DNA of 64,000 bases. Origin: Lunularia cruciata. Taxonomy: Eukaryota > Streptophyta > Marchantiopsida > Lunulariales > Lunulariaceae. Each line of letters opens with the position of its first letter. Position 1 is the first letter of the stretch. Positions 7,337 through 32,962 of the stretch are shown piece by piece. The notes beneath the pieces were generated by a model. The model did no database searches. It had not been told where the DNA came from and saw nothing but the letters and a program-made list of their open reading frames with translations. Location: the NCBI GenBank assembly GCA_948567375.1, contig OX419755.1, forward strand, positions 6,825,001 to 6,889,000. The letters are read 5' to 3'. The translations under genes and the position numbers were made by a program.

Positions 7337-8317
7337 TTGTGATGGTAGATTATAGGTTGCCCTTCCTCCTAGTGTAGTTGTCATCATTAGAGCTACATTA
7401 GTTAGTAATGTTCAGTTGGTGGTGTTGGCACTTGGTGGTGATTTTTGGTGGGGTACTTGCAATGGTTCCGATTACGGGTTGTAGTTCTTGGTTACTTTGT
7501 CACGATAGTGTTCTTTGGGGATTTTGGAAGAGATAGCACTGCAATACATATTGGGTTTACTCAAGGTGGTGCTCATTATCAGCTTGTTTCTTAGGTCCCA
7601 ATGAGGGAGGAGATTGACTATGAGTCGGAGTTTGACATAGGAGCTGATTTAGTTGAGAATGCACTTGGTTTGTTTGCATTGTTATTGTGGGACATGGACA
7701 AGATTTGTGGAGCCTCCAAAGGTCCTAGATGTTATTCTAGTATAGTGGATACCATTGAGTTGGATAACTTCATCCAAGAGTTTGTTAGTTGGTGTGATTT
7801 GCAATAGATTCAAAACTTGACTTTGTTCACACTCTTCATGGAAGAGGTTGTTTCAGCATTTGGAGGGTCCACCAATGGACAACTACCATGAGTTTAGGAG
7901 AGCTCACTTGGAGGAGATTGAGCTAAGGAGATAGTATTGGTCTTTGAACTATGTCTCCATTACTTGAGGCTTGGTTTCTAGGGGTAGATTGATAGTACCC
8001 ATGAGTTCTAGCTCTAGTAGCATTGGTGGATCTCTTGGAGATGGTGCTACTACGAGTGGAGGTACTACTATATGAGGTGGTGTAATACCAGGGTTTAACC
8101 CCATGATGGAGTTCTTTTATTGTACGAGTTACAACTACCAAGGAGTACGGATTGACAAGTTGAGGAGCTTGCAAGAGTTCCAATGGAAGGCTAAGAGAGC
8201 CTATGCAAGGCATACACTCGCATGAGATGGCTGATCAGTTTTACTCAGGGAATTATTGAGGCCCAAGCAATCCAATTTTGGTATGGTACTTGATAGGGAG
8301 TTGCAACATAGAGTTTT
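7337..8317 (+). pseudogene. Host Ty3 element, gag N-terminal part
   Basis: A 68-residue open piece (EEIDYESEFDIGADLVENALG ... ELDNFIQEFVSWCDLQ) is followed, across stops, by phrases typical of a retrotransposon gag core, such as LYELQLPRSTD near 8120 and GIIEAQAIQFWYGT shortly before the break. Gy1 interrupts the frame at 8318 and the sequence continues at 13967. The assignment rests on position ahead of protease and on the WYGT-like core, so it is moderate. Confidence 0.5.
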
Positions 8318-8728
8318 TGTAAAAGACCAAAACCAAGGAGAGAAATAGGAGAATGGAAGTTCACATTGGGACGCTTGAATGTGAGAAAACTTTGAATGCC
8401 TAGCATGAGCTTTGGCTTTGGTATTTATAGGTAGCATACAAGGCCCTTGATAAGCTTCTCAAGAAGCTTTCTTGAACCTCTTTCTTAGAGTGCAAGCCAA
8501 GTTAACCAGGAAGTTTCTCAAGAAGCTTCCTTCTAGAAGCCGCCTACTTGGTGTGCAAGCTAAACTAGTTAGAAGCTTCTAGAAGCTGCTTGCTTGGGGT
8601 GCAAGTTAACTAGTCAAGAAGCTTCACAAGAAGCTTCCTAGATGCTTCTAGAATATTATAGGCTAATTTGGCTTATTCTCTACTTCATTAGCCTTACTAA
8701 CTATGTTGCTAAACTCCATATTGTTACA
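8318..8728 (-). repeat. Gy1 3' LTR
   Basis: 411 bp, TG...CA in element orientation (starts at 8728, ends at 8318). It contains the TATA box (tatttata on the plus strand at 8422) and several GAAGCTTC palindromes upstream of it. It is about 29 bp shorter than its partner, and the two differ at many positions, which marks an older insertion than Gy2. Confidence 0.92.
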
Positions 8729-8759
8729 TATTCCCCCACCGCTAGTTGGTGACGTCCTC

Positions 8760-8965
8760 ATCTCCATTGAAGCTTCAAACTCCTGGATGGCCGTTTGTGC
8801 ATTTTGGAGGTGAGAAAGAGGTTCCCATGTGGCATCATGAAGGGGATACCTTTTCCAAAGGACCTTGTACTCCGTATGTTGGCGGCATCCTCGTTGGATG
8901 TGGCGATGTGCAAGGATACAATCAACTTCATACTCCTCATGATCATTGATAGGGATAGGGGGAGG
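8760..8965 (-). pseudogene. Gy1 chromodomain, frameshifted
   Basis: At the end of integrase the minus strand encodes HEEYEVDCILAHRHIQ, then HTEYKVLWKG, and after loss of one base DATWEPLSHLQNAQTAIQ. The aromatic cage pattern Y...W.....W matches chromodomains of chromoviruses, which guide integration to modified chromatin. The single-base deletion lies at the WKG-YPLH position. In Gy2 the same domain is intact. Confidence 0.85.
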
Positions 8966-9070
8966 AGGAGGTTGGACTCAAGAGGAGAAGGAAGACGGGT
9001 TAGGAACAAAGGGTTTTAACTCAGAAATATGAAAGATAGGATGGATGCGCATATGAGAAGGCAAAGCATG

Positions 9071-9829
9071 TCAATAAGCAACAAGAGAGACAATTTGGGT
9101 GATATCAAAAGGTCCTATCCAATTAGGGGCAAGTTTACAAACTTGGGTATGAAGTGGGAGGGGTAGGTTACTAGAGGATAGCATAACTTTATCACCAACT
9201 TCAAAGGTGAGATCACGATCATGATGGTCCGCATATTGTCTTTGACGATTTTGAGCAACAAGGAGGTGAGATTTGGCTTGTTGGAGAGATTCGAAGATGG
9301 TGGTCAAGAAGTTTGAAGTATGGGGGAACTGAGACCGAGGAGGAGCAAGAAGAGAATCTAGGACAAGAGGATCTTGGCCAAAATTGAGAAAGAAAGGAGA
9401 GAATTTGGTGCTTGCCTGTTTAGAATTGTTGTATGAAAACTTTATAGCTACAAGACATTCATCCCAATTGGTATGGTGAATGTTGACGAAGGCACAAAGC
9501 ATATCTTCCAAGGTGCAATTTGCAAGTTCAGTTTGTCCATTAGTTTGAGGATGATAGGCTATGGAAAAAGCAAGCTTGGTGCCAAGTATCTGGAAGAGGG
9601 CTTGCCAAAACTTTCTAGTGAAGCAAGGATCACGATCGGAGATGAGTACACATGGCATCCCATGATGTTTGAATATATTATCAAAGTAGAGTTGCGCCAA
9701 CGTTGGAGCATCCACAATATCAACCGTTGGTGCCAAATGGATTTGCTTACTAAGCTTATCTACAAATACCACAATTGTTGTGTGACCTTGTTGTGTCTTG
9801 GGCAAGGAGGTGATGAGATCTAAGCTCAC
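9071..9829 (-). pseudogene. Gy1 integrase catalytic core and C-terminal region
   Basis: This is the longest open piece of Gy1 (252 residues). It starts inside the core at SLDLITSLPKTQQGH (first catalytic D), then has VFVDKLSK, LISDRDPCF (second D) and HPQTNGQTELAN (E). Exactly 35 residues lie between the second D and the E, so the D,D35E triad is intact. After the core come LNFGQDPLVLDSLL, ADHHDRDLTFEVGDKVML and KLAPNWIGPFDITQ, the usual GPF/Y module before the chromodomain. The frame upstream is closed, so the protein could not be made complete. Product role in an active element: insertion of retroelement cDNA. Confidence 0.88.
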
Positions 9830-9879
9830 ATGCTCCCAACAAGTAGTTGGAATGGGAAGTAGTTGAAAGAGTCCACTCG

Positions 9880-10430
9880 GCTTCTAGTTATTGGCCTTGT
9901 TGTAGTGACAACTCTCACACAATCGGACAACCTCCCAAACATCTTGTGTCATGTTGGGCACCACCATTGGCATTGGAGGGTACCCAAGGTCTTGTCCACC
10001 TCCATGTGACCAGCTATTGGTAAATCATGGGCTTCCTGTAGGTGCACAAGTCGGAGATCACCTTTGGCTAGCACATAGATCCGGTCCGCATGGAATAGAG
10101 GCTTTCCTTGAAGGAGAAGGTGTTGTACTCCTTGTCACCTGTTGTTAGACGACCATGTACCATTTGGAAGAAGGGATCTTGTTGTAGAGCTGACCGAAAC
10201 TCGTTATGGACCTTGGGATCAATTGACACCGTCGTAATTGCCGCCGTGATGACAGGAAGAGACTTCAAATCTAGTCGTCGTGATAGAGCATCAAGGATGA
10301 CAAGGAACCAACCTGGTTTGTACTCAAGTTTGATGTCAACCACTGGAGTTGCCCTTCCTATCAATGATGTCGACTCTTCATGTATTCCAAGTGTAAGGTC
10401 TGCAACAATGGCTTGTGATCAATTTGCATG
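9880..10430 (-). pseudogene. Gy1 RNase H end and integrase zinc-finger region
   Basis: The minus strand carries VDIKLEYKPGWFLVILDALSRR (end of RNase H, usual form N..ADALSR), then HNEFRSALQQDPFFQMVHGRLT and KEYNTFSFKESLYSMRTGSM. In Gy2 the matching stretch continues YVPTKGDL, as in the region before the HHCC finger. The finger itself is only partly readable because of frameshifts around 9900-10060. Confidence 0.75.
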
Positions 10431-10499
10431 ATCACTTGTTTTCCTAAGAGATAATGCCTCCATTCCTTGTTGGCCTATACCATTGCAAGTTGTTCCTAA

Positions 10500-11950
10500 T
10501 TTTGAGCAAAGTAATTTCTTTTAGTTGTATTTAGTCGGTGAGACACAAAGGCAATGGGATGTAGTCCATTTGGGAATTCCTATTGCAAGACAGCTCCAAT
10601 TGCAAAGTTAGAAGCATCAAAATCAACCACACAAGATAGTTGAGGATCATATGGTTGAAGAATGGGTCTTGAAGACACCATATGCTTTAACTTCTAGAAT
10701 GCTTCTTCATGCTTGGTGGTCCACTGGAAGCTTGAGTTCTTTCCCAAGAGGTCAGTTAATGGTGTAGCGACATGAGCATAATAGTGGATGAACCGTTGGT
10801 AAAAACTGGCCAATCCATTGGATGCCCATACTTTTGTAGCATCCGTCGGAGTAGGCCAATCAGTAATGGCCTTGATTTTCTCTTCTTCTATCTTGATCCC
10901 CTTTGATGAGATCTTATGACCCAAGAAGGTAACCTCCTTATGTCAAAAGGCACACTTCAACTTCTTGCAGTAAAATTTCCATTGTCATAGTCGTCTTAGG
11001 ACTTCTTGCACATGATTCACATGTTCTACCTCTGTCTTGCTATAGATTAAGATGTCATCCAAGAACACCACCATGGACCAATCCAATAGTCCATCCATCA
11101 CCCGATGCATCTGATCCATGAAGATTACTTGAGCATTAGTGAGTCCAAAAGGTAGAACTCTCCACTCAAAATGCTCATACCTTGTGCAAAAGGCAGTCTT
11201 TTGCACATCTTCTCTATCAATAGGGATTTGCCAATAGCCGCTATGAAGATCCAACTTGGAAAATTATCATGCTCCACTTAATTGATCAAGCAAGTCGTCA
11301 ATCCGAGGCAAGGGATATGCATTCTTCATAGTTTGCTTATTGAGCCCACGGTAATCAATATAGAAATGAAGTTATACATCCTTCTTTGGAACAAATAGTA
11401 CCAATGCTCTCCAAGGAGAGGTACTATGTCATATGAAGTCCTTCTCCAACAACTCTATAAGTGTTGTTTGCAATTCCTCCAACTCCTTTGGTGAGAGTCG
11501 ATAGATCGGTCTACTCATTGGAGTACTCCCAAGCAATAACTTGATCTTGAAGAGCATACCTCAATCGGAGGGTAATCCCTTTGGCAGATTATTTGGAAAT
11601 ATGTCCACAAACTCTTGTACTATCCAATCAACCATTGCTTGATGAGGCTCTTGGTCCTCCCCCGATTATTCTTGTGCAATCAGCTTGATCCACACCGTGA
11701 ATATAGACTTATCTTCCTCCAAAGCTTGCTCTATGGCTACTTCACTAACAAACTTCCCTTCTAGGGACTCATCTCTCTTGCAAGCTTGCTCCATGGTTGC
11801 CTTCTTGGCAAACTTCCCATCTTGGGACTCATCTTCCTTCAAGGTTTGCTTTATGGCTACCTTCCAACAAACTTTGCATCTTGAGACTGACTATTCTTAG
11901 GTGCCTTACTTAGAGGTGCCAAGCAACCTAATCGGAAATTTCTACCTTGG
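10500..11950 (-). pseudogene. Gy1 reverse transcriptase / RNase H
   Basis: Open pieces show MDLHSGYWQIPIDREDVQ, LPFGLTNAQVIFMDQM and the catalytic VVFLDDILIYS (FLDD form of YxDD), then MGHKISSKGIKIEEEKIKAI, FYQRFIHYYAHVATPL and LTDLLGKNSSFQW. Upstream, the fingers domain corresponding to Gy2 ([22 protein letters not shown]) is present in broken frames. Premature stops separate the parts. The function in the live ancestor was cDNA synthesis. Confidence 0.87.
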
Positions 11951-11970
11951 TGTTATACTTGAATTTGTCA

Positions 11971-12270
11971 TCAAGTCCAATCAAATTGAATCTTATGAAG
12001 TTCAAGCCAAGGTAGACCTAGAATGATATCATAGTGTAGAGGTGCCACTACAAACCTCATACACTCCAAATACTCCTTCCCAATCTTGAAGGTAACAGGA
12101 TGTGAGGTACTAAATGCAGAACCTTTTCTACCATCCACCATCATCAATCTATTTCCAATTACTAGCTTGATAAGAATACCCAATTCCTTTGCCACTTGTA
12201 TTGACATACAATTTTTGGAACTTTTGGAATCAACCAAAATCTTACAATCTCGATTAGATATTGTACCTTA
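11971..12270 (-). pseudogene. Gy1 aspartic protease
   Basis: The open piece begins MVDSKSSKNCMSIQVAKELG, matching the retroviral-type active site VDSGSS.N with G changed to K. It continues [20 protein letters not shown] and [12 protein letters not shown], the ILG.PWL motif of Ty3 proteases. The changed active-site glycine and nearby stops indicate loss of function. Confidence 0.82.
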
Positions 12271-12399
12271 CAAGTGAAGCAAACTTGCATAGGTCAGCCT
12301 TCAATCCCATTGGAACTAATCAAGCTCCCAATAGGCAGCTTGAGATCTCCTATTGGGATTCCTTGTTTCCCTGATCATTTTGCTCCACAACATCCTCTT

Positions 12400-13254
12400 A
12401 GGCAACTTGTTGAGGTTGCCCATTCTTGAGTGAACATTCAACAATATGATGCCCTAATTGGCAACAATAAAAACAACCACCATTTTGTCATAGTTTCTCT
12501 CTATATACAATGCCAAGTGGTCTTTGTTGAATGGCATCAATCTCCATTGATGCTGGCTCTTCCACTTATGTGTAGTGTGTTGATAGGCTCTATGGAGGTT
12601 GAGGTCAAGATCAAGTTGTTGCCACCAAGGAATCAAAATGTTTGGCCAACTGCATGGCTTCCCCCAAGTGTTGTGGCTCTTGCATGGTTACCTCTAATTT
12701 GGTTCTTGCCTTCAAGCCCCTTACAAATAGATCTAGAGCTTCACCTGCCAATATATCTAGAATTTACATGATTGTGTTTTGGAACTACGTGATGTAACTT
12801 CTTATAGAACCAATCTGTTTCAACTTTGCCAACTTTCTTGTGCAGCTCATATGGCATTTATAGCTTGGAATCGACTAATTATTGCACTCTTGAATTCTGC
12901 CCATGTCAAGATTGGTGCAACAATTTGTCATTCAGCGCGCTCTACTTGGAATCTCCACCATAGCTTTGCTACTCCATCCAAGTGGTTAGAAGCCAAGAGA
13001 ATTTTTTTTTGCTCGTCTTGTTGATTGGTTGCTTCAAAATAACATTCACAATCAAACACAAAATTCTCCACTACACTCGAGAGATTCTTACCTTCAAATA
13101 CCTTGGATTTAGGGAATCTAATCCAATCTTCTCCTTCTTGAATTGGTACTCTCTCCACATGCTCTTGTTGTTGAAGAACTTGTTCATCCAACAATAGAGT
13201 AAGGTGCTCAATTTGTTGCTACATAGCAAGGATAACATCAAGTATTGCCGCCAT
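12400..13254 (-). pseudogene. Gy1 gag
   Basis: The frame starts at an ATG at 13254 (MAAILDVILAM) and hits a TAG eleven codons later, where the sister copies read a glutamine. It then runs LTLLLDEQVLQQQEHVERVP and EGEDWIRFPKSKVFEG, ILLASNHLDGVAKLWWRFQ (the retrotransposon gag core with LDG.A..WW), and ends with a CCHC knuckle CFYCCQLGHHIVEC (C-x2-C-x4-H-x4-C) near 12440-12480. Stops between the core and the knuckle show decay. Confidence 0.82.
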
Positions 13255-13267
13255 GGTTGCTACTCTA

Positions 13268-13504
13268 TCACGCCACCCTTAATCTATCTAATTTGTTAAC
13301 ATATAGAAATAGCACGTCCACCGTTCTGCATAAGTTATAATTGGACAGTACCAAGGGTTCCTCAAATATGGTGATCATATGGAAAAAATCTTGTCCAAAG
13401 TGTGAGGTGATGAACTGTGTGAAACAATGCTTGGGGAATACTTGGACACAAAAATCCCAATGGTTTGGTGGAAGTGGATTTGGTGGTCCATAAATTCCAT
13501 CCAT
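13268..13504 (-). CDS. Gy1 leader ORF between PBS and gag
   Basis: An open frame of 78 codons begins 22 bases inside the 5' LTR and reads MDGIYGPPNPLPPNHWDF, then FGQDFFHMITIFEEPL and VNKLDRL. It is upstream of and separate from gag. The same text begins at the same distance from the LTR in Gy3, and in decayed form in Gy2. I know no family for it. It could be a small protein, or a conserved leader whose protein-coding look is accidental. Confidence 0.45.
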   Translation of the reverse strand: MDGIYGPPNPLPPNHWDFCVQVFPKHCFTQFITSHFGQDFFHMITIFEEPLVLSNYNLCRTVDVLFLYVNKLDRLRVA

Positions 13505-13526
13505 CCCATTCCTGCTTTGATACCAA
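13505..13526 (-). other. Gy1 primer binding site (initiator tRNA-Met)
   Basis: Directly inside the 5' LTR the minus strand reads TTGGTATCAAAGCAGG. TGGTATCA.AGC is the complement of the 3' end of plant initiator tRNA-Met, the usual primer of plant Ty3 and Ty1 elements, with one mismatch to the common TGGTATCAGAGC form. Confidence 0.88.
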
Positions 13527-13966
13527 TGTAAAAGACTGAAACCAAGAAGAGAAATAGGAGAATGGAAGTTCACATTGGGACGCTTGAATGTAGGAGAACT
13601 TCAAATGTCTAGCATGAGCTTTGGCTTTGGTATTTATACGTAGCATACAAAGCCCTTGAGAAGCTTCTCAAGAATTTTCCTTGAGCTACTTTCTTAGAGT
13701 GCAAGCCAAGTTAACCAAGAAGCTTCTCAAGAAGCTTTCTTCTAGAAGCCGCCTACTTGGTGTGCAAGCTAAACTAGTAGGAAGCTTCTAGAAGCTTCCT
13801 TCTAAAAGCTACTTGCTTGGGGTGTAAGTTAACTAGTCGAGAAGCTTCCCAAGAAGCTTCCGAGATACTTTCGGAGTATTCTAGGCTAATTTCTAGGCTT
13901 TATTCTAGGCTTATTCTCTACTTCATTAGCCTTACTAACTATGTTGCTAAACTCCATATTGTTACA
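13527..13966 (-). repeat. Gy1 5' LTR
   Basis: 440 bp, TG...CA in element orientation. U3 contains several GAAGCTTC palindromes and one uninterrupted GAAGCTTCTAGAAGCTTC, followed (on the minus strand) by a TATA box (tatttata on the plus strand at 13631) and the U5 end CTTTTACA. Confidence 0.92.
13781..13798. promoter_or_regulatory. Heat-shock-element-like array in Gy1 5' LTR
   Basis: GAAgcTTCtaGAAgcTTC is four alternating GAA/TTC units with exact two-base spacing, matching the nGAAnnTTCn consensus bound by heat shock factor trimers. It lies about 145 bp upstream of the LTR TATA box on the element strand. Function is inferred from the motif only. Confidence 0.5.
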
Positions 13967-15240
13967 GTTTGGTATGCTACGTTGTTATAGGCTACTTTGG
14001 CAGTGGTCTTTGGCTTGGCTTTGGCAACATATTGAGCTGAACATGGTGGAGGAGAGAGTAGTGACATCTGGAGTTGGTAGAGAGACCTTGTCCATAGTTG
14101 TTACTTCTTCTAGAGTGCAGTAGAGTGCACCATGCCATGTTGGTTTCCAAGGACAAGGTGGATAGCCTAGATCCTATGGAGTGAGGAGAGGGCTTAGTGT
14201 GGCCAAACCTTTACCTTAATTTTTGGGTCAACAATAGCCAATGAGTGGTGGTGTTGCTTGTTGGACTTGTGTTGGACTTGATCATAAGAGATAGTGCACT
14301 TAAAGTAGTGGACCTAATACCTCTAGTGCATCACAACTAACACAAAGATAGTGTGAGCATTGCCACAAATTTGATGACACCAATGACCAATGCTTTGACT
14401 TACACTCAGAGTTAGGGAGTGGTAGAGTTGCTATGGTAGGTGGTACAGGAGCTCCATGTCATGGAGGACTAAGTGGTTGAGGTGGTGGTAGAGGATCCAC
14501 ACCTAGTAGAGGTGCAGTACCTGCCCTTACTTCTAATACAACCATGGCTACTCAAATTGACCAATTGGAGTAAAGATTAGCTAGAATGGCCATAGCTTAG
14601 AGGAGATCAGATTTGGGTGCTGAGGTTTCTACCTCATATGCAGGTGATAGAGATGTCTTAAACCTCATGTACAAAGCAGCACAAGTGGATGTATCTGCCA
14701 TAGTGACTAGGAATGCAATACGTGCTCCAGAGCCTAGAGGAGCATCAATGGAGTTGGATCCACAAAGAGGAGAGATTGGTAGACAAGTCAAACTTCCCTA
14801 GTCTTTTACACTCTTTGAACCACTACAGACAACATCCATGGCTCCTAGACGTCCTATTGCAAGTGTGGTAGGTGGTGATGGGGTGTATGATGGACTATCT
14901 ACTAGTTAGCTACCTACTACTACATAGACTAAGTCTAGCATAATGTTGGAGATGGCTCAGTTGATTATGCGCTTTCTATTATTCTTAATGAGTGACATGT
15001 GTATATTGGGAGTTGATCCAGCCCTAGTGTTTTGGTTGGTTGCCATGCTTTTTGACAACAAGGATGATGTGGTTCCTATCACTAGATCAGAGGTGGTTGA
15101 TAGTGGAGTTGACTTGGTTGAGGAGCATGGATCCACTCAGCAACCAATGGTTCATGGTAGGCAATAAAGGGTAGATTGGAGGAGTTACCAACTAGACCGA
15201 CCTTTGAGCGAGCACGGTTTACACCTAGAGTTGTCCTATT
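13967..15240 (+). pseudogene. Host Ty3 element, gag C-terminal part
   Basis: After the Gy1 break the + strand holds decayed gag sequence. A cysteine-rich knuckle-like stretch CEHCHKFDDTNDQCFDLH begins at 14352. Gly/Arg-rich phrases and a 62-residue open piece (GAEVSTSYAGDRDVLNLMYK ...) follow. I could not align the rest with a family. The position directly before protease supports the gag label. Confidence 0.45.
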
Positions 15241-15269
15241 GGATAACCAAAGGGGGATTTTTCATTTGG

Positions 15270-15610
15270 TGGGACCTTAGGGAAGGTCTATACACCACAG
15301 AGGGTCTTACTAGACTCTAGGGCACAACCTCTTATGTTGGAGAAGGTTGCAGTTGTTGGTCAAGAGTTACGGAAGACCGGTGTGGAGAGGTGTCCATTTT
15401 AGATCTAAACATCTTTAGGTGGTGATTCTACACAATACATCACATATGAAGAGCTTGTTGTTCAAATTCAGCTTGATCATCCAACTGATAGCTCTATGGT
15501 GAGAGTTCATGCCATTGCAAAGGCTGAGTTATATGATGTGTTAGTTGGGGGAGAAATGTTATACCCCATGGGTTTCAGTATTGACTATTGGGAGGAGATA
15601 ACCTCCTATA
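15270..15610 (+). pseudogene. Host Ty3 element, aspartic protease
   Basis: The frame reads RVLLDSRAQPLMLEKVAV, matching the pepsin-like active site LLDSGAQP with G changed to R. It continues with IQLDHPTDSSMVRVHAIAKA and ELYDVLVGGEMLYPMGFSID, where (D/Y)vLvG.e.LyP is the second protease landmark of this Ty3 group. The altered active site and the stops around it show loss of function. Confidence 0.7.
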
Positions 15611-15891
15611 GACCAGGTTAGCAATCAGGTGAAGAACAAGTATGTCACCTACTTGTACGCTTTAGTAGTGGTAGCTTGGCTCATTACAGTCCCGGACCAT
15701 GGCAACATCAGTTTCAATGGGTTTGTTACTTGGCTTGGTGATTTATTGGAGGGAAACGCCCATGCAGAGGATACTCCAATACCAAAGGAGATCTCTTGGA
15801 TTTGGAGGACAAATGGGATTGTTTCATCCATCTTGGATATTTCTTTGTGGAGTTCAGAGGAGGCATTACAATGCAATAGCATGAAAATCAG

Positions 15892-16960
15892 TTGGTGCAA
15901 CAGGTTTGGAGTGGAGCCTTTGTACCACAAGGTGACCAGTGTGAGGATGAGCCTCCAAAGTTGATTACCTTGACACCTTTGGATACCACACTCATTGCTT
16001 GGCAATATCTAGTAGAGGGATTATGTCTATTGGAGTTGTTTCGTGGGATTAGTATTGAGCTAGTTGCAGTACTACAAGTAAGTATAGGAGTACAGAGATA
16101 CTTGTATGTGGAGAGACATGAGACTACTAGGCAAGTCTCTCTACATCATGTAGCACACATTGGTATCCTAAGTTATTACCAATGTCAATTGTCAAGGGTT
16201 ACCAAAAGACCTTACAAGTAGATATTTCCTTGTTGGGGGTGCAAGATTTGGAGAGACATGGTCCCATTCATTTGGTGATTTTTGGATGGCCATGTTAGGG
16301 ACGTACATGCATTGGCCAATGTTTGGGTCTTCAAGATCCTTGTTTTGGTGTATTTTGGGAGATGTTATGGACACTACAACATCTCCATGTTCATCAATCT
16401 ATTTCTCCAACTTACATTTTGGAGAACATCCCTTTGATGGTTGATTCTTGCATTAGGGTAGTGGTGAGCACACATCGAGTGCATTCTTGGATGGGACCTA
16501 CCGTGTTGTTGGATGCAACCAGAGTGGGATCACGGGCTCATCATCTTTGTCTTTGGTGGACAAACCTCTTACCTATAGAGGTTCTACAATGTACTTATGA
16601 TGGGATTCAACTACTAGACCACATAATTGTTGATGACATCTTGGATGTTGGGCATCAGTCTTAAATGGTGTTAGTGGTTGATAGGTCACCTATGGTAGTG
16701 GTGAACCTAGTTGGATAGCCTCAAGTTGCTTTTCCCACAATTATGAGTTTCCTATGCTCCCATGCTTTTTGAGAGGGAAGTCTTGGATTGGTTTGGGACT
16801 CTCAATTACAACAATTGGTGGAGCTCATGCTAAGGAAAGAGAGCGGGCAATGGGTTTTTGCATAGGTATTATTGTTGTTCCAATAGTGTCAAAGGCATCT
16901 AAGAATTAGGTGTTAGGTTAGGCTATGGACCTAAACTATTTGACCTGGATTGTGAGCCTT
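15892..16960 (+). pseudogene. Cytosine-5 DNA methyltransferase-like domain in the host Ty3 pol
   Basis: Between protease and RT there is a domain not found in ordinary gypsy polyproteins. One frame shows LCLLELFRGISIELVAVLQ at about 16024 (motif I, usual F.G.G.G), RRYLYVE-like QRYLYVERHE (motif II), IFGWPC followed by a TAG at 16296 (motif IV PC, whose Q codon became a stop), YILENIPLM at 16416 (motif VI ENV/ENI), and GSRAHHLCLWWTNL (motif VIII/R.R with the (F/W)W.NL seen in the DNMT3/DRM type). The motif order and spacing fit a C5-MTase. Motif I is damaged (FRGISIE in place of F.G.G) and stops occur at the PC motif and after 16664, so it is inactive here. Capture of cytosine methyltransferases by retrotransposons is known from a few eukaryotic lineages. 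The DNMT3-like subtype is inference. Confidence 0.72.
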
Positions 16961-17279
16961 GGTTGGCAGGGCAGCGTGGGATGTGCTTGATAGGCATCAC
17001 CACTCTAACACTTGTGAGTTTTGTGCCTATTAAGACAATTCAGGCACATGTTAGGGGCAATGGACCAAGTGGACAAGGTATTCTTGGGACACAACTAGTG
17101 GCTACTAGGGAGAGTGGTCTACTTGGAGTCAATCTAAGTGAGCATGGTCTACTTGGATTACACCCTTGGTCTACTTGGGATGCAACTAGAGGACATGTGG
17201 AGCTTGTAGCCAAAGTAGAGGGAGTTTTTCACACTGAGGTTAGGACCTCGAGTGCTTGGGGGCATGACACTACTACTCC

Positions 17280-17828
17280 CAAAGGCCCAATGTAGCAGCC
17301 CGTCAGTATGTCTTCCACTCCTATGACAATTACAAAGGATACTTGGGAGCTAGATCTGGGACCCAAGCTTACAAGAGAAGAAAGATGGAGAGTTTGGAGG
17401 TTCTTGAGGAGCTACATGAGTTGTTTTGCCTTTAGTATGAAGGATTTGGGTGCTCTAAAAGGACTTGGTAATCAGATTGAGCTTACTAGCAATACACCAA
17501 ATTTTTGACATCCTATCAATATAGTGACATGGAGAGAACATTGGTTCAGAGTTGGAGTAGTGACCTTTTTGAGACTGGTTTGGTGGAAATTTCACATGGA
17601 GAGTATGCATCAACTACAATGATGCAAGCCAAGAAGGATATGCATGGAAACTACACAGATAGGCGGATGTGTGGAGATTACCGTCCTATCAACCAATAGA
17701 CTAGGGTTGATTGGTATGTCATGCCTGCACTGGAGCAGATCTTTGATGTGATTGGACATGCAAAGGTCTTCAGCACTTTGGATCTTCAAGTAGGATATCA
17801 TTAGTTCTTGATCAAGGAGGAGGATAAG
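17280..17828 (+). pseudogene. Host Ty3 element, RT N-terminal half
   Basis: The open stretch WELDLGPKLTREERWRVW, FLRSYMSCFAFSMKDLGALKG is the linker found before gypsy RT. After one stop and shifts come MCGDYRPINQ (the R..DYR.LN motif), MPALEQIFDVIGHAKVFSTL and LDLQVGYH. The reading frame is cut at KEEDK by insertion of Gy2 and resumes at 23239. Confidence 0.82.
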
Positions 17829-18253
17829 TGTAAAAGACCGAATCCGAGGAGAGAAATAGGAGAATGGAAACTCACATTGGGACACTTGAATAAGGGAAAA
17901 CTCCGAATGCCTAGCATGAGCTTTGGCTTTGGTATTTATAGGTAGCATACAAGGCCCTTGAGAAGCTTCTCAAGAAGCTTCCTCAAGCCGCTTTCTTAAA
18001 GTGCAAGCCAAGTTAACTAGGAAGCTTCTCAAGAAGCTTCCTTCTAGAAGCGCCTACTTGGCATGCAAGCTAAGCTAGTTGGAAGCTTCTAGAAGCTTCC
18101 TTCTAGAAGCTACTTACTTGAGGTGCAAGCTAAGCTAACCATGAAACTTCCTAAGAAGCTTCCTAGATACTTCTGGAATATTCTAGGCTACTTTGTCTTA
18201 TGTGCTACGTCGTAAGCCCGACTAACTTCATTGCTAAACTCCATATTGTTACA
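17829..18253 (-). repeat. Gy2 3' LTR
   Basis: 425 bp. Contains the TATA box (tatttata on the plus strand at 17933) and, 20 to 220 bp upstream on the element strand, a dense run of GAAGCTTC palindromes. A cggcagggga purine tract and ata triplet precede the LTR on the element strand, the probable polypurine tract. Confidence 0.95.
18082..18108. promoter_or_regulatory. Heat-shock-element-like array in Gy2 3' LTR
   Basis: GAAgcTTCtaGAAgcTTC (18082-18099) is four perfect alternating units, directly followed by another TTCtaGAA. In the 5' LTR a 14-bp deletion removed one repeat, leaving GAAgcTTCtaGAAgc at 23076. The repeats lie upstream of a TATA box, as expected of a promoter element. Motif-based only. 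Confidence 0.52.
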
Positions 18254-18289
18254 TATTCCCCTGCCGCTAGTTGGTGACGTCCTCGTCGC

Positions 18290-18589
18290 TAGTGAAGCTT
18301 CGAATTCCTAGATGGCCATCTGTGCATTGAAGAGGTGAGAAAGAGGTTCCCAGGTGGTATCATGAAGGGGATACCCTTTCCAAAAGACCTTGTACTCCGT
18401 ATGTTGGTGACAGTCTCGTTGAATATGGCGATGCACAAGGATATGATCAACTTTGTACTCCTCATGATCATTGATAGGGATAGGAAGAGGGAGAGGTTGG
18501 ACTCGAGAGGAAAAGGAAGAGGGGTTAGGAACAAAGGGTTTCAACTTGGAAACATGAAAGACAGGATGGATACGCATGTGACAAGGCAA
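18290..18589 (-). pseudogene. Gy2 integrase C-terminus with intact chromodomain
   Basis: The frame reads HVSKLKPFVPNPS, then EEYKVDHILVHRHIQRDCHQ, HTEYKVFWKGYPLHDTTWEP and LSHLFNAQMAI. This is a complete chromodomain with the Y, W and W/E.TWEP landmarks, about 50 residues long. Chromodomains mark the chromovirus branch of Ty3/gypsy and direct integration toward chromatin with particular histone marks. It is linked to integrase only through a frameshift here. Confidence 0.9.
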
Positions 18590-19360
18590 GGCAAGTCGAT
18601 AAGCAACAGGAGAGACAATTGGGTGATATCAAAGGGTCCTATCCAATTAGGGGCAAGTTTACGAACTTGGGTATCAAGTGGGAGAGGGAGGTTACTGGAG
18701 GATAGCATGACTTTATCACCAACTTCAAAGGTGAGATCACGACGATGATGGTCTGCATATTGTTTTTGGCGATTCTGAGCAACAAGGAGGTGAGACTTGG
18801 CTTGTTGGAGAGATTGGGATATAGTGGTCAAGAATGTGGAAGTATAAGGAACTTGAGATGGAGGGGGAGCAAGAAGAGAATTTGGAACAAGCAGATCTTG
18901 GCCAAAATTGAGAAAGAAAGGAGAGAATCCGGTGCTTGCCTGTTTGGAATTGTTGTAGGCAAATTCTACAGCGGCAAGACATTCATCCTAATTGGTATGG
19001 TGGACATTGACAAAGGCACGCAACATATCCTCCAATGTACAATTTGCACGTTCGGTTTGTCCATCAGTTTGAGGGTGATAGGCCATGGACAAAGCAAGCT
19101 TGGTGCCGAGTATCTGAAAGAGTGCTTGCCAAAACTTCCTGGTAAATCAAGGATCACTGTGAGAGATGAGTACGCATGGCATCCCATGATGCTTGAAGAC
19201 ATTGTCGAAGTAGATTTGCACTAAGGTTGGAGCATCCATGATATCACAAGTTGGTGCCAAGTGGATTTGCTTACTAAGCTTATCCACAAACACCACGATG
19301 GCGGTGTGTCCTTGTTTTGTCTTTGGCAAGGATGTGATGAGATCCAAGCTCACATGCTCC
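18541..19360 (-). pseudogene. Gy2 integrase core
   Basis: The core starts SLDLITSLPKTKQGHTAIVV (first catalytic D) and VFVDKLSKQIHLAPT. At the second catalytic position it reads LISHSDP in place of SDRDP, so the aspartate is replaced by histidine, and a TGA follows two codons later. The frame then recovers through FTRKFWQALFQILGTKLALS to the GQTERAN glutamate and on to VGDKVMLSSSNLPL and LAPNWIGPFDIT. Loss of the second aspartate alone would abolish strand transfer. Confidence 0.85.
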
Positions 19361-19900
19361 TAGCAAGCTGATGGAATGGCAAGCGGTTGAAGGAGTTCAC
19401 TCGGATTTTGGTTGTCAGCCTTGTTACATTGGCAACTCTCACACGATCAGACAAATTCTCAAACATCTTGTGTCATGTTGGGCCACCACCATTGATGTTA
19501 GAGGGTACCCAAGGTATTGTCCACACCCTTGGGACCAATGATGGGTAAATCATGGGCTTCTTGAAGGCGCACAAGTCAAAGATCACCTTTGGTTGGGACA
19601 TAGATCCGGTCCACATGGAATAGAAGGCCTTCCTTGAAGGAGAAGGTGTTGTACTCCTTGTCACCTATTGTTAGACGACCATGTACCATTTGGAAGAAGG
19701 GATCTTGTTGTAGAGCTAACCGAAACTTGTTATGGATCTTGGGGTCAATTGACACCGTCGTAATTGCTGCCGTGATGAGAGGAAGAGACTTCAAATCAGG
19801 TCATTGTGATAGAGCATCAGGGATGACATGGAACCAACTTGGTTTGTACTCAAGTTTGATGTCAAACAATTGGAGTTGCTCTTCCTATCGATGATGTCGA
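19360..19900 (-). pseudogene. Gy2 RNase H end and integrase zinc-finger region
   Basis: The minus strand shows IHNKFRLALQQDPFFQMVHG, RLTIGDKEYNTFSFKEG, LLFHVDRIYVPTKGDL and, after frame changes, phrases around CESCQ.NK of the HHCC finger. The sequence parallels Gy1 and Gy3. Frameshifts prevent a continuous protein. Confidence 0.75.
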
Positions 19901-20022
19901 CTCTTCATGTGCTCCAGGTGTAAGGTCTACAACAATGGCTTGTGATCAGTTCGCATGATCACTTGTTTCCCCGAGAGATAATGCCTCCATATCTTGGTGG
20001 CATATACCATTGCAAGTTGTTC

Positions 20023-21851
20023 TTAATCTCGAGCAGAGTAATTTCTTTCAATTGTAATTAGTTGGCGAGACACAAAGGCAATGGGATGTAGTCCATCTGG
20101 GAATTCTTGTTGCAACACAGCTCCAATTGCAAAGTTAGAAGCATCAAAATCAACCACACAAGGTAGTTGAGGATCATATGGTTGAAGGATAGGTCTTGAA
20201 GACACCATATGTTTTAACTTCTGGAATACTTCTTCATACTTGGTGTTCCATTGGAAGCTCGAGTTCTTTCCCAAGAGGTCAGTCAATGGTGCAGCCACAT
20301 GAGCATAATAGTGGATGAACTGCTGGTAAAAACTGGCCAATCCATTGAATCCCCGTTCTTCTATAGCATCCTTCGGGGTAGGCCAATCAGTAATGGCCTT
20401 GATCTTCTCTTCTTCCATCTTGATTCCCTCTAAGGAGATCTTATGACCCAAGAAGGTAACCTCCTTCTGCCAAAAGGCACACTTCGACTTCTTGCAGTAA
20501 AATTTACATTGTCGTAGTCATCTTAGGGCTTCTCGCACATGATTCACGTGTTTTGTCTCTATCTTGCTATAGATTAAGATATCATCCGAGAACACCACCA
20601 TTGAGCGGTCCAATAGTCCATCCAACACCCGATGCATCTGATCCATGAAGACTCCTGGGGCATTAGTGAGTCCAAAGGTAAAACTCTCCACTTGAAATGC
20701 CCACACCTTGTGCGAAAGGCAATCTTTTGCACATCCTCTCTATCAATCGAGATTTGCCAATAGCCGGTGCGAAGATCCAACTTGGAAAAGTAACGTGCTC
20801 CACTTAGTTGATCAAGCAAGTCATCGATCCGAGGCAAGAGATATGCATTCTTCACAGTTTGTTTATTGAGCCCACGATAATCAATACAGAAACAAAGTCC
20901 TCCATCCTTCTTTGGAACAAATAGTACCGGTGCTCCCCAAGGAGAGGTACTATGTCGTATGAAGTCCTTCTCCAACAACTCTGTAAGTATTTTTTGCAAC
21001 TCCTCCAACTCCTTTGGTGAAAGCCGATAGATCGGACTACTCATTGGAGTACTCCTTGGCAATAACTCGATCTTGAAGGGCATACCTCGATCAGAGGGTA
21101 ATCCCTTTGGCAGATCCTCCGGAAACACGTCCGCAAACTCCTTAACTATCCAATCAACCATTACTTGATGAGGCTCTCGGTCCTCCACAGATTGGCCTTG
21201 TGCAATTGGCTTGATCTGCACCGCAAATACAGACTTATCTTCCTCTAAAGCTTGCTCTATGGCCACTTTACTAACAAACTTCCCTTTTAGGGACTCATCT
21301 TTCTTCCAAGCCTGCTCCATGGTTGCCTTCTTGGCAAACTTCCCATCTTGGGACTCCACTTCCTTCAAGGTTCGCTCTATGGCTACCTTCTTGACAAACT
21401 TCCCATCTTGGGACTGACTATTCTTAGGTGTCTTACTCAAAGGTGCCAAACAACCTAATCGGAAATTCCTACCTTGGTGTTGTACTTGAATTTGGCGTCG
21501 GGTCCAATCAAATTGAACCTTATGACGTTCAAGCCAAGGTAGACCCAGAATGATATCATAGTGTAGAGGTGCCACTACAAACCTCATACACTCCAAATAC
21601 TCCTTCCCAATCTTGAAGGTAATAGGATGCGAGGTGCGGAATGCAGAACTCTTTCTACCATCCGCCATCATCAAACTACTTCCAATCACCAGCTTGATAG
21701 GAATACCCAATTCCTTTGCTACTTGCATAGACATGCAATTCTCTGAACTTCCAAAATCAACCAAAATCCTACAACCCCAATTAGATATCATACCTTGCAA
21801 GTGAAGCAAACTTGCATAGGTTGAGCCTTCAATCCCATTGGAACTAATCAA
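20023..21851 (-). pseudogene. Gy2 protease - reverse transcriptase - RNase H
   Basis: A 425-residue open frame starts in protease ([20 protein letters not shown]; active site D-S-G changed to [14 protein letters not shown]). It passes through a linker with three 20-residue repeats, then the RT fingers and palm: [59 protein letters not shown] one-base deletion in the LPFGLTNAP codons (about 20675) shifts the frame; RT goes on as [11 protein letters not shown] (catalytic DD kept). RNase H follows: MGHKISLEGIKMEEEKIKAI, VDFDASNFAIGAVLQQEF, PIAFVSRQL. It would need one frame correction to read through PR and RT. Confidence 0.9.
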
Positions 21852-21865
21852 GCTCTTAGTAGGCG

Positions 21866-22567
21866 GCTTGAATTCTCCTATTGGGATTTCTCGTTTCCCT
21901 GATCATTCCGCTCCACAACCTCCACTTGGGCAACTTGTTGAGGTTGTCCATTCTTGAGTGGACATTCAGCAATGCGATGCCCCAATTGGCGACAACAAAA
22001 ACAACCACCATTTTGTCGTAGTTTCTCCCTATCTGCCATGCCAAGTGGTCTTCGTTGAATTGCATCAATCTCCATTGGTGACGGCTCCTCCACTTGTGTG
22101 TAGTGTATTGGAAGGCTTTGTGGAGGTCAAAGTCGAGACCAAGTTGTTGCCACCAAGGAATCAAAATGTTCGGCCAAACGCATGGCTTCCTCCAAATGTT
22201 GTGGCTCTCGCATGGTTACCTCTAATTTGGTAACCATTTTTCATTTGGCTCGCTCCTTTCGGAATCTCCACCATAGCTTTGCTACTCCATCCAATTGGCT
22301 AGAAGCCAAGAGAATCTGTTTTTGCTTGTCTTGTAGATTGGTAGCTTCAAAATAACGCTCACAATCAAACACAAAATTCTCCACTACACCCGGGAGATTC
22401 TTGCCTTCAAATACCTTGGGTTTAGGGAATCTGATCCAATCTTCTCCTTCTCGAATTGCTACTCTCTCCACCTGCTCTTGTCATTGAAGATCTTGTTCAT
22501 CCAACAATCAAGTAAGGTGCTCGATTTGTTGTTGCATAGCAAGGATAACATCAAGTATTGCCGCCAT
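21866..22567 (-). pseudogene. Gy2 gag
   Basis: Starts MAAILDVILAMQQQIEHLT at 22567. Two TGA codons follow where the family probably had CGA arginine codons. The core reads VERVAIREGEDWIRFPKPKV, VFDCERYFEATNLQDKQ and ILLASSQLDGVAKLWWRF. The C-terminal part has SPMEIDAIQRRPLG and a clean CCHC knuckle CFCCRQLGHRIAEC. Gag would form the virus-like particle and bind RNA through the knuckle. Confidence 0.85.
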
Positions 22568-22799
22568 GGTTGCTCCTCTATCACACCACTCCCAATCTAT
22601 CTAATTTATTAACACATAGAAATAGCATGTCCACTGTTCTCCATAAGTTACAACCGGAAGCACCAAGGGTTCCTCAGATATGGTGATCATATGCAAAAAA
22701 TCTTGTCCAAAGTGCGAGGTGATGAACTGTGTAAAATGATGCTTGGGTAGTTTTTGGACACAAAAATCTCAATGGTTTGGTGGAAGTGGATTTGGTGGT

Positions 22800-22821
22800 C
22801 CCATTCCTGCTTTGATACCAA
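22800..22821 (-). other. Gy2 primer binding site (initiator tRNA-Met)
   Basis: Inside the 5' LTR the minus strand reads TTGGTATCAAAGCAGGAATG, the same initiator tRNA-Met complement as in Gy1. Confidence 0.88.
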
Positions 22822-23233
22822 TGTAAAAGACCGAATCCGAGGAGAGAAATAAGAGAATAGAAACTCACATTGGGACACTTGAATGAGGGAAAACTCCGAA
22901 TGCCTAGCATGAGCTTTGGCTTTGGTATTTATAGGTAGCATACAAGGCCCTTGAGAAGCTTCTCAAGAAGCTTCCTCAAGCCGCTTTCTTAGAGTGCAAG
23001 CCAAGTTAACTAGGAAGCTTCTCAAGAAGCTTCCTTCTAGAAGCCGCCTACTTGGCATGCAAGCTAAGCTAGTTGGAAGCTTCTAGAAGCTACTTACTTG
23101 AGGTGCAAGCTAAGCTAGCCGAGAAGCTTCCTAAGAAGCTTCCTAGATACTTCCGGAATATTCTAGGCTACTTTGTCTTATGTGCTACGTCGTATGCCCG
23201 ACTAACTTCGTCGCTAAACTCCATATTGTTACA
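22822..23233 (-). repeat. Gy2 5' LTR
   Basis: 412 bp with TG...CA ends, TATA box (tatttata on the plus strand at 22926), and GAAGCTTC palindromes at 22956-23142. It differs from the 3' LTR at roughly a dozen sites, mostly transitions. Confidence 0.95.
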
Positions 23234-23238
23234 ATAAG

Positions 23239-24392
23239 TTCAAGATAGCATTTTGGGCTATTGATCCTCACGGTAAGGATGTGTTATATTAGTGAAAGTT
23301 CTTACCATTTGGGTTAAAGAATGCTCTTGTTGAGTTCTAGAGGATCATGGAGAGGATCCTAGCTGGATTGGGTTTTGCTTAGTGCTATATTGATGACATT
23401 TTGGTCTATAGCATTATGATGGAGGAGCATGAGAGAGATTTGTTGGAGGTGTTTTAGACATTGAGATCTAATGGACTCAAATTATATCTTGGGAAGTGTA
23501 GGTTCTTCCACAAGTAGGTTGAGTATTTGGATCACACTATCTACCCTAGAGGATTTGATGTTCAGCAAGGTGGAGGTTATTGTGCATATTCCTTGGCCTA
23601 CGGATGTGAGTAGAGTGCAAGCATTCCTTGGGTTGGCAAACTTCTATCTTGCCATGGTAGAGGATTTAATGCCATTGCCAAGGCCTTGATAAAGCTGACC
23701 AAGCTTACATAGGAGTGGTGTTAAGGAGATGAGCAAGAGAGAGCTTTTGTAGAGCTCAAGGAGAGGTTGATATCTACTCCTATTTTGAGGAGACCAATTA
23801 GAGGATCACCATTTCATGTTCACACTGATTGGAGTATGTTGGGGCTTGGAGTAGTACTCACCCAACATGATGATGAGGGGAAGGAGTTTGTGGTAGCCTA
23901 TGCTAGTCACTCCAATAACTCATTGGAGGCAAAGTATAGTTCATATGAGGGAGAATGCTTGGCTACAGCATGGGCAATAGCACATTTTGGATATTGCCTA
24001 TTTGGTAACCCTTTTACTCTCATCACCAATCATCAACCACTAAAGTGGTTGATGATATCCAGCAAGCTTTCAAGGAAGTTTGCACGATGGGCTCTGATTT
24101 TACAAGAGTATGATTTCATGGTTATTCTTAGACTTGGAATGGTGAACCATGATGTAGATGGGTTGAGTAGAAACCCATGTCCTAGCCAGCAAGATCAAAC
24201 TAGAGCACGTTGGCATGGTGAGATAGATGAGGAGATAGTGCCATATTGGCATGCATTTACCTTTCTCTGTATATTTTTTGAGGCTTTGGTGGTACCTCTC
24301 TCAGTGCATATAGGAGGAGTTATTGAGGTCACAAATCTAGAGAGTGCAGATAGTGGTACAATTTAGCAAAATATTCATGATAATGTCTTAGT
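23239..24392 (+). pseudogene. Host Ty3 element, RT C-terminal half and RNase H
   Basis: The RT resumes at KIAFWAIDPHGKDVLY, then FLPFGLKNALVEF, CYIDDILVYS (catalytic YIDD intact) and GLKLYLGKCRFF. RNase H follows with a 199-residue open stretch: ISTPILRRPIRGSPFHVHTD, GLGVVLTQHDDEGKEFVVAY, LEAKYSSYEGECLATAWAIA, FTLITNHQPLKWLM and MVNHDVDGLSRNPC. The RNase H catalytic carboxylates (D in HTD, E in YEGECLA) are kept, while ITDHQPL reads ITNHQPL. Frame stops occur in the RT half. Confidence 0.88.
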
Positions 24393-24818
24393 TGTAACAA
24401 TATGGATTTTAGTAATGAAGTTAATCAAGGCTAACAAAGTAGTGAATATGCCAAATTAGCATAAAATATCCTAGAAGTATCTAGGAAGCTTCTTGAGAAG
24501 CTTCCCACTAGCTTAACTTGCACTCCAAGTAAGTTTTTTCTAGAAAGAAGCTTCTAAAAACTTCCAACTAGCTTTGTTGGCATGCTAAGTAGGTGGTTTC
24601 AAGAAGGAAGCTTCTTCAGAAGCTTCTTGGTTAACTTGGCATGCACTCTAAGAAAACGGTTGAAGGAAGTTTCTTGAGAAGTTTCTCAAGAGCCTCGTAT
24701 ACTCCTTATAAATACAAGAGCCAAAGCTCATGCTAGGCATTTAGAGTTTTCCCATATTCAAGTGTCCCAATGTGATCTTCCATTCTTCTATTTCTCTCCT
24801 TGGTCTCGGTCTTTTACA
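24393..24818 (+). repeat. Gy3 5' LTR
   Basis: 426 bp starting TGTAACAATATGG and ending CTTTTACA. TATA box tataaata at 24707; GAAGCTTC-type dyads (for example ggaagcttcttgagaagc at 24484) lie upstream of it. The downstream R/U5 part contains the conserved phrase gagccaaagctcatgctagg. Confidence 0.94.
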
Positions 24819-24838
24819 TTAGTATCAGAATAGGAATA
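24819..24838 (+). other. Gy3 primer binding site, mutated
   Basis: TTAGTATCAGAATAGGAA directly after the LTR corresponds to TTGGTATCAAAGCAGGAA in Gy1 and Gy2, with several substitutions. It is the initiator tRNA-Met site in decayed form. Confidence 0.75.
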
Positions 24839-24840
24839 GG

Positions 24841-25047
24841 ATGGATGGAATTTATGGACCACCAAATCCACTTCCACCAAACCATTGGGATTTTTGTGTC
24901 CACGTACTACCCAAGCATCATTTCACACAATCCATCACCTCACGCTTTGGACAAGATTTTTTGCATATGATCACCATATTTGAGGAGCCTTTGGTACTTC
25001 TAATTGTAACTTATGGAGAATGGTGGACTGCTACTTCTATATGTTAA
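24841..25047 (+). CDS. Gy3 leader ORF between PBS and gag
   Basis: Begins MDGIYGPPNPLPPNHWDFCV and continues FGQDFLHMITIFEEPLVL, the same text as in Gy1 at the same place, then diverges after one frame change. 68 codons. Unknown function; see the Gy1 copy. Confidence 0.4.
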   Translation: MDGIYGPPNPLPPNHWDFCVHVLPKHHFTQSITSRFGQDFLHMITIFEEPLVLLIVTYGEWWTATSIC

Positions 25048-25097
25048 TAAATTAGATAGATTAGGGGCGGCGTGATAGAGTAGCAACTAGGGCGGAA

Positions 25098-25990
25098 ATG
25101 CCCAAGGTTATCATTATTATGCAACAACAAATCAAGCACCTTACTTGATTGTTGGATGAACAAAATCATCAATGATAGGAGCATGTAGAGAGGGTACCAA
25201 TTCAAGAAGGAGAAGATTGAATCTGATTCTCTAAACCCAAGGTATTCAAAGGCAAGAATCTTTGGGTCGCAATAGAGAATTTTTTGTTTGACTGTGAATG
25301 TTAGTTTGAAGCTACTAATCTTCAAGATGAGTGAAAATAAATTTTCTTGGCTTCTAGCCAATTGGATGGAGTAGTAAAACTATGGTGGCAATTTTGAGTG
25401 GAGCAAGTTGAACAACAAATTATTGCACTAATCTCAATGTGTGCAGAATTCAAGAGTGCAATAATTAGTCAATTCCAAGCTATAAATGCCACATGAGCTC
25501 CATGGGATAGGTTGGCAGAGTTAAAATAGATTGGCTCTATAAGAAGTTACATCATGCAATTCAAAACACCATCATGCAAATTCAAGATATATTGGAAGGT
25601 GAAGCTCTAGATTGATTTATGAGGAGATTGAAGTCAAGAACCAAATTAGAGGTAACCATGTGAGAGCCACAACACTTGGAGGAAGCCATGCGGTTGGCCA
25701 AAGGTTTTGATTCCTTGGTTGCAACAACTTGGTCTTGGTCTTGATCTTGATCTCTACAAAATCTACCAATACACTATACACAAGTGGTGGAGCTGATACC
25801 AATGGAGATTGATGTCATTCAATGGATACTACTTGGCACTACAAATAGAGAAAAATTGTGACAAAATGGTGGTTATTTTTTTGTTGCCAATTGGGATATT
25901 GCATCGCTGAATATCCACTCAAGAATGGACAATCTTGACAAGTCGCCCATATGGAGTTTGTAGAGTAGAATGATCAAAGAAACAAGGAAT
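25098..25990 (+). pseudogene. Gy3 gag
   Basis: Homologous to Gy1 and Gy2 gag in broken frames: QQQIKHLT, stop, LLDEQ, then EHVERVPIQEGED with a stop at the W position, and FLASSQLDGVVKLWW-like sequence near 25350-25390. The CCHC knuckle is destroyed: the first cysteine codon reads TAT, and a one-base slip precedes the rest (around 25875). Confidence 0.75.
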
Positions 25991-26029
25991 CCTAGTAGGA
26001 GATTTTGAGTTGCCCATTGGGAGCTTGAT

Positions 26030-27815: not shown

Positions 27816-28289
27816 TGTTTTCAAGAAAAAGATTATCGGCTATCATTGGTGCTATTTGGTGAGAGCTAGAGTTTCCTTCCATGAGACCTTAGCTTGAGAG
27901 TCTCTTTGCATTACTTGGAGCTTAATTTTGTGATACACCAACCGTGGCTTTGTTTATGGTATTGGAATCTTGAGAATATGCTTTGAGTGTCATTTGAACA
28001 AATAAGACATGTAAGAGTATTTTAGTTAGGACATTATTTTCATGAGCCAAAAAGTCTCGGAAGTTTATTTGATGTTTTGATCAAATAAGCTTTTGAGCAT
28101 TTTATGTTGAGTAATGAAGAAAAGAAGAAAAAGGGTTTTGAAAGGGTTTTTTTTTTTGCAAAAGGAAAGAATTTTTGAGAAATGTTTTTCGGGAGATCTT
28201 TGCTTCAGGAAGGCTTCAAAGGAGCCTTGACGGATAACATGATAGAAGTTTTGGAGAAGAAAGAATTCGAGAGAAGAAGGGATTTCTTG

Positions 28290-29960: not shown

Positions 29961-30610
29961 AACGAGCTTTTGACAGTGAGGATTTTTGGAAGGAGTTTGA
30001 AGGTTGATAGAGTTTTGCAGGAAGGATCCGAGAAGTGTCAGAGGGTTTGGAAGAAGAAATGTTTTAGGAGAAGAAAGAGCAATTTTGGAGGAGCTTCAAG
30101 TAATGGAAGGTTAGGAGAAGAATCAAGAGCAAGGCAGGGGAGCAAACAAGAAGTATTGAGTGAAGAAGGGAGAGAGTTTGAGAAAAAGTACAGGAATAGT
30201 ATCAAAAGAAGATAAGAAGAAAATCAGACAACAAGAGAAGGCAGATTGAGGAATCAAAAGCAGAGTACAACAATAGAAGGAAAGAAAAATTAGAGAATGG
30301 TTTTGGACCATTGAAGAGCAAAGAGTGAAGGGCATCGAGAGGAAGAGAGAAGAAAGGAACAAAAAAATCAAAGAGTGTCTTGGACAACCAAAAGGAAGAG
30401 AGAAAGGTGGTTTCTTGGAGGAAAAGAAAAGATCAAGGGAGGTCAGGAATTGGAGTGTGAGGAGAGAAATACTTGAGGAGGAGACTGTATGGACTCATAG
30501 TGATAGGAGGGAGAAACCAAAGGAATTTTGCAGAACAATGAAGACTTGGAGATGTCATGCGGAGACGGCAAGCAGGAAGTCAAAGACTATAAGGGATAGG
30601 AGTTAAGACC
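29960..30610. other. Strongly purine-biased tract
   Basis: The plus strand is mostly A and G over several hundred bases downstream of the minisatellite, for example agagagaagaaaggaaca and gagaaagg repeats. The bias already begins in the repeat array. No protein family was recognised in either strand. Confidence 0.75.
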
Positions 30611-32940: not shown

Positions 32941-32962
32941 ACCAACTAGTGGTGGGGGAATA

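Follow-up and report, generated by a model that had tools for sequence, protein, structure and literature searches.

A decayed DNMT3-like cytosine methyltransferase domain in an old plant copy of a Ty3/gypsy retrotransposon

Retrotransposons are normally silenced by host methylation, and an element that carries a methylation writer of its own is therefore a paradox. The described cases include KnitGypsy-Dnmt3, an already published DNMT3-bearing Gypsy element of the charophyte alga Klebsormidium nitens, and the dinoflagellate SymbioDIRS-Dnmt3 and SymbioLINE-Dnmt, which likewise are retrotransposons bearing a C5 cytosine methyltransferase, but belong to other retrotransposon classes and are judged unrelated to the Gypsy case (PMC5890265; this paper, PMC6338049 and PMC6453930 are cited throughout from the parts of their texts that were available). 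SymbioDIRS-Dnmt3 was reported to methylate CG in yeast (PMC5890265). For K. nitens, DIRS-like repeats have been reported. For land plants, the available text of PMC6338049 states that such elements are absent, and no report of a land-plant element with a DNA methyltransferase was found in the open literature, judged by titles and the beginnings of abstracts of the hits listed.

Here we analysed a stretch of 64,000 nucleotides of DNA, probably of plant origin (the window), of which 15994-16987 is, by its sequence, almost certainly a decayed C5 cytosine methyltransferase domain lying between the protease and the reverse transcriptase (RT) of an old Ty3/gypsy element. Like KnitGypsy-Dnmt3, this is a streptophyte LTR element of the Gypsy type whose polyprotein includes a DNMT3-type methyltransferase, although the hosts are liverworts, peat mosses and the plant of the window rather than a charophyte alga, and the two are likened by published description; Klebsormidium does not occur among the names of the 86 relatives collected below, 58 of which carry no organism. 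As far as the open-literature search shows, the new point is the land-plant occurrence in liverworts and peat mosses, as opposed to the statement in PMC6338049, so that the paradox of a self-carried writer, until now known from a charophyte and dinoflagellates, extends to land plants. According to the initial annotation, such enzymes have been captured by a few lineages of eukaryotic retrotransposons, in agreement with PMC5890265.

The old element was mapped by tblastn with the 86 relative proteins as queries, considering the matches listed only, and its gag, protease, RT, RNase H and integrase pieces are colinear over 7478-33665 in the Ty3/gypsy order, interrupted by three nested LTR elements as follows.

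7478..8317, plus strand: old element, first part of gag; protein matches at 7478-8284, e.g. Marchantia P0004, P0005 and P0007 and Sphagnum P0027 (tblastn); ends at nested insertion 1
8318..13966, minus strand: nested LTR element 1, inside gag; LTRs 8318-8728 and 13527-13966, K2P 0.089 (self-BLAST)
13967..15137, plus strand: old element, gag continued; matches at 14019-15137, P0004 with 154 bits over 14019-15050 (tblastn)
15152..15890, plus strand: aspartic protease and linker of the old element, spread over more than one frame; P0002 at 15250-16161, 44% identity (tblastn)
15880..16218, plus strand: methyltransferase piece 1, motif I region; model positions 1-56 at 15994-16161, 49 bits, E 4.9e-14
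16131..16295, plus strand: methyltransferase piece 2, with motif IV GWPC at its end, followed by a stop; model positions 58-103, 46 bits, E 4.6e-13
16299..16661, plus strand: methyltransferase piece 3, motif VI (ENI) and motif VIII region (GSRAHH); model positions 107-224, 121 bits, E 5.8e-36
16668..16987, plus strand: C-terminal part of the methyltransferase, motif IX/X region, in several frames; 12.8 and 10.9 bits, tblastn match 16668-16963
17080..17828, plus strand: old element, linker and first part of RT (GDYRPINQ); P0027 67% and P0009 64% identity over 17502-17750; tblastn matches reach over 17080-17834
17829..23233, minus strand: nested LTR element 2, inside RT; LTR K2P 0.030, target duplication ATAAG
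23234..24306, plus strand: old element, rest of RT and RNase H; P0016 55% identity over 351 columns, E 1e-112; tblastn matches reach over 23233-24306
24393..33388, plus strand: nested LTR element 3, downstream of RNase H; LTR K2P 0.103, flanks TTAGT/TTAGC
33468..33665, plus strand: old element, zinc-binding part of integrase; ORF2 of L001 38%, E 9e-10; P0085 43%

Nested element 1 ends in TGT...ACA, has the flanks GTTTT/GTTTG and carries its RT on the minus strand, while the end of nested element 3 at 33388 was read from the sequence letters, the LTR alignment having run to 33392; the five-base flanks are identical in one of the three insertions and one base off in the other two. Since all three are inserted into the old element, it is older than each of them, which bears out its description as the oldest element in the initial annotation. 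LLDSRAQP of the window's protease aligns with LLDTGAQP of P0002, in whose protease part the matches to PF13650 and PF13975 each stay under the curated cut-off. The integrase core and a PHD finger were not found in 33390-64000 with 10 proteins as queries and an E limit of 0.05, and the termini of the old element were not found in the window. Two stretches, 6233-7335 outside the first gag piece and 33665-34665 directly after the integrase piece, are about 81% identical in inverted orientation and may be another repeat or unusual terminal repeats. Inside nested element 3, a repeated region at 28241-30019 shows a strong GC skew (0.62 in 28001-30000).

The methyltransferase had initially been proposed from four landmarks in a single frame, and all four, ELFRGIS, IFGWPC, YILENIP and GSRAHHLCLWWTNL, were found where they had been placed, but they occupy two frames, ELFRGIS that of base 15601 and the other three that of base 15600. 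A stop codon stands directly 3′ of the PC of IFGWPC; the window copy is dead, as had been claimed. Pfam gave no methylase in any of the six translations covering the stretch and likewise none in three translations of the protease stretch, its sole signal in the decayed pieces being the unrelated, sub-threshold PF22983 (E 0.11), and phmmer against the PDB with single window pieces as queries did not find a methyltransferase. When 16269-16661, with its stop as X, was searched against about 5.8 billion proteins, 2 of 35 candidates matched: P0002, with 58% identity (E 3.2e-40), and P0003 (Marchantia polymorpha MARPO_0024s0079), with 48% identity (E 1.4e-23). Both carry PF00145 (E 5.8e-12 and 1.2e-7, respectively), in P0003 together with RT_RNaseH, and because of this we read the missing direct Pfam match as decay; thus a methylase profile fails on the fragment itself but is matched through its relatives. 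A profile was then built from 34 relatives, with the window left out, and scored against all 2093 six-frame ORFs with 20 or more residues, yielding three pieces at 121, 49 and 46 bits that are colinear with the DNA, and two C-terminal scraps, also colinear, at 16685-16906 (12.8 bits) and 16922-16987 (10.9 bits). The remaining listed matches (E up to 10) scored at most 3.8 bits, compared with a noise level of 7.3 bits, the best score among 20 residue-shuffled sets, and nothing within the three nested LTR elements rose above this noise. With the best piece at E 6e-36 and the domain at the same place in relatives, the first annotation of a C5 methyltransferase within the polyprotein of a Ty3/gypsy element is upheld. 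The element may, as further conjectured there, have written CG or non-CG methylation on itself or in imitation of the host.

In a further protein search 35 of 7697 candidates matched, and in another, which scored only candidates that shared most words, 71 of 7993 did; all searches summed gave the 86 relatives, whose names comprise 21 Marchantia polymorpha, 2 Calypogeia fissa, 3 Sphagnum, 1 Closterium and 1 bacterial MAG, in addition to the 58 without organism. One of the 86, P0087 (E 2e-4), looks like a bacterial-type enzyme. The methyltransferase was accompanied by an RT and/or integrase match in 25 of 89 sequences examined, and three arrangements occur among them: methyltransferase before RT (n = 12), methyltransferase between RNase H and integrase (n = 7) and integrase only (n = 6). 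A PHD finger was listed in 6 of 7 of the second type and in all six of the third, and in 0 of 12 of the first, most of which end before the integrase. Marchantia P0009 and P0016 and Sphagnum P0027 share the domain's place between the protease region and RT. For P0009 (MARPO_0091s0058) and P0016 (Mp_2g26090), a single gene model, which may hide breaks, spans the protease region, the methyltransferase, RT and RNase H, the RT/RNase H being 53-55% identical to that of the window; they are named 'hypothetical protein' or by family names, and the element is undescribed in the names returned. Marchantia being a genetic model with long gene models that include a full methyltransferase domain, the question becomes testable there if a live copy is found.

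L001 (CADCWO010000201.1, 9285 bases) has the methyltransferase-before-RT arrangement in open ORFs, with RT, RNase H and integrase in ORF2 and a PHD finger after the integrase. It is filed under a Synechococcales MAG, and a true cyanobacterial gene was rejected for this free-standing 9.3 kb contig with identical 127-base ends and an LTR-type gene set; eukaryotic contamination, that is, a misbinned LTR element, is the likely source. P0044, named as a DNA cytosine methyltransferase and filed under a MAG of Candidatus Obscuribacterales, falls within the retroelement family and is likely contamination as well. In the metagenomic polyproteins P0030, P0032 and P0033 the order is RT, RNase H, C5 methyltransferase, integrase and PHD, and P0030 and P0032 have an extra C-terminal stretch after the PHD finger, which in P0032 resembles a D12 adenine methyltransferase model below the cut-off (E 0.16); possibly, two DNA methyltransferases and a histone reader are combined here in a single element. 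Viral contigs scanned with the window piece gave seven pattern matches, none of which was confirmed, and a search with the family alignment yielded C5 methyltransferase-like ORFs at 28 viral and 5 bacterial loci.

The methyltransferase of the relatives is DNMT3-like by sequence and predicted fold. DNMT3 is the nearest among solved methyltransferases in both sequence and structure comparison, scoring far above DNMT2; the catalytic domain of DNMT3A/3B is the best match and shares the linear motif order, although identity is 21-28% in the structure comparisons and the domain here is embedded in a Ty3/gypsy polyprotein. The structure prediction had a mean pLDDT of 73 and a pTM of 0.59, with pLDDT mostly at least 90 in the blocks from 340 to 675 and dips at 441-450 (73) and 591-600 (64). 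Catalytic residues are largely kept in the relatives, Cys in 70 of 73 rows, Glu in 76 of 77 and two Args in 71 of 75 and 73 of 74, the residues of motifs IV, VI and VIII. Neither ADD nor PWWP was reported by Pfam in the relatives scanned. DRM, DNMT1 and CMT chains were absent among the 50 structure matches listed, which excludes none of them; the rearranged motif order of DRM (PMC6453930) is not seen in P0002 and the window, where the motifs run I, IV, VI, VIII, X.

The methyltransferase tree held 58 element rows (57 proteins and ORF1 of L001, all with a single stretch covering 266 model positions or more, shorter ones being dropped), 8 outgroup rows (7 of the 33 viral and bacterial loci, and P0087) and one DNMT3A row. 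All seven proteins of the RNase H-integrase type fell into one clade with four others (99.7/100). The largest methyltransferase piece of the window belongs to a 13-row group that includes P0002, P0013 (Calypogeia) and rows from Marchantia (92.8/97). The single partial DNMT3A row lay inside the element rows, with weak support, in a tree without host plant DNMT3; as it sits there on a long branch (2.5), nothing was drawn on the source of the domain. In an RT tree of 10 relatives, the window piece and one outgroup, the two arrangements separated (86.7/85 and 97.3/80), the RT/RNase H piece from the window grouping with Marchantia P0009 and P0016 (96.9/99). Because the deeper order differs between the two trees, these sequences may reflect either one capture with a move of the domain or two captures.

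Taken as a whole, we consider it probable that the window holds a dead copy of a plant Ty3/gypsy element with a DNMT3-like C5 methyltransferase between protease and RT, and that in live copies this enzyme methylated the cDNA or the DNA of the insertion. It would have been made and delivered with the Gag-Pro proteins of the particle and would have methylated either the cDNA of the element, at integration or earlier, or the DNA near the insertion, by which new copies would gain the methylation state of resident silent DNA; in relatives with a PHD finger after the integrase, this finger could link methylation to a histone mark at the target. Methylation of cDNA has been proposed for DIRS elements, with alternatives listed (PMC5890265). 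That methylation of cDNA or of the element itself was the main role is an evenly balanced proposition, and elements lacking the domain also insert here, which is a point against a methylation role. More speculatively, and with low probability, a Ty3/gypsy lineage may have kept a de novo methyltransferase, partly with a PHD reader, from streptophyte algae to liverworts and mosses, with writer and reader placing copies pre-marked as host heterochromatin; if true, such a retrotransposon would bring its own silencing with it when it arrives.

Alternatively, the enzyme could serve restraint by methylating the element's copies or its competitors, keeping transposition low enough for the host to survive, from which the element gains too, an option listed in the available text of PMC5890265. 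As expected of long-methylated DNA, the CpG observed/expected ratio is 0.09-0.18 in the old element versus 0.67 in 37.5-52 kb. However, the nested elements without the domain (0.19-0.45), 1-6 kb (0.25) and 52-64 kb (0.42) are CpG-poor too, so ordinary host silencing explains the depletion, and we regard restraint as unlikely. Somewhat less likely still, the domain may be a nucleic-acid binding or RNA-modifying part of Gag-Pro that no longer methylates DNA. It lies in the protease ORF and not the RT ORF of L001, and only the SymbioDIRS enzymes were reported active among the retroelement enzymes tested in yeast in the available text of PMC5890265, which would suit such a part, whereas the retained catalytic Cys and Glu and the DNMT3 scores far above DNMT2 argue for a DNA methyltransferase. 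Old repeats collect insertions, three in this case, and a host DNMT3 gene or pseudogene might by chance have fallen into the decayed element without ever being part of it; this is contradicted by the shared place of the domain in Marchantia and Sphagnum, and Pfam found DUF3444, the C-terminal domain of streptophyte host DNMT3 (PMC6453930), in 0 of 13 relatives or relative ORFs matching the methyltransferase model (several truncated, P0087 left out), making it highly improbable. Chance motif resemblance in decayed sequence, for which the direct Pfam scans without methylase might speak, is contradicted by the match to a profile built without the window, far above the shuffled sets, and is of negligible probability.

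Apart from the element, the window showed neither tRNA genes nor Rfam matches. A ClpX-type gene with short introns has its exons at 39323-43375 on the plus strand. Part of a gene for the mitochondrial ribosomal protein uL22m lies at 50619-51242 on the minus strand and makes a plant host likely, with its best matches in plant mitoribosomes (9evs_1T, 107 bits; Arabidopsis AT1G52370, 104 bits; next match, 53 bits).
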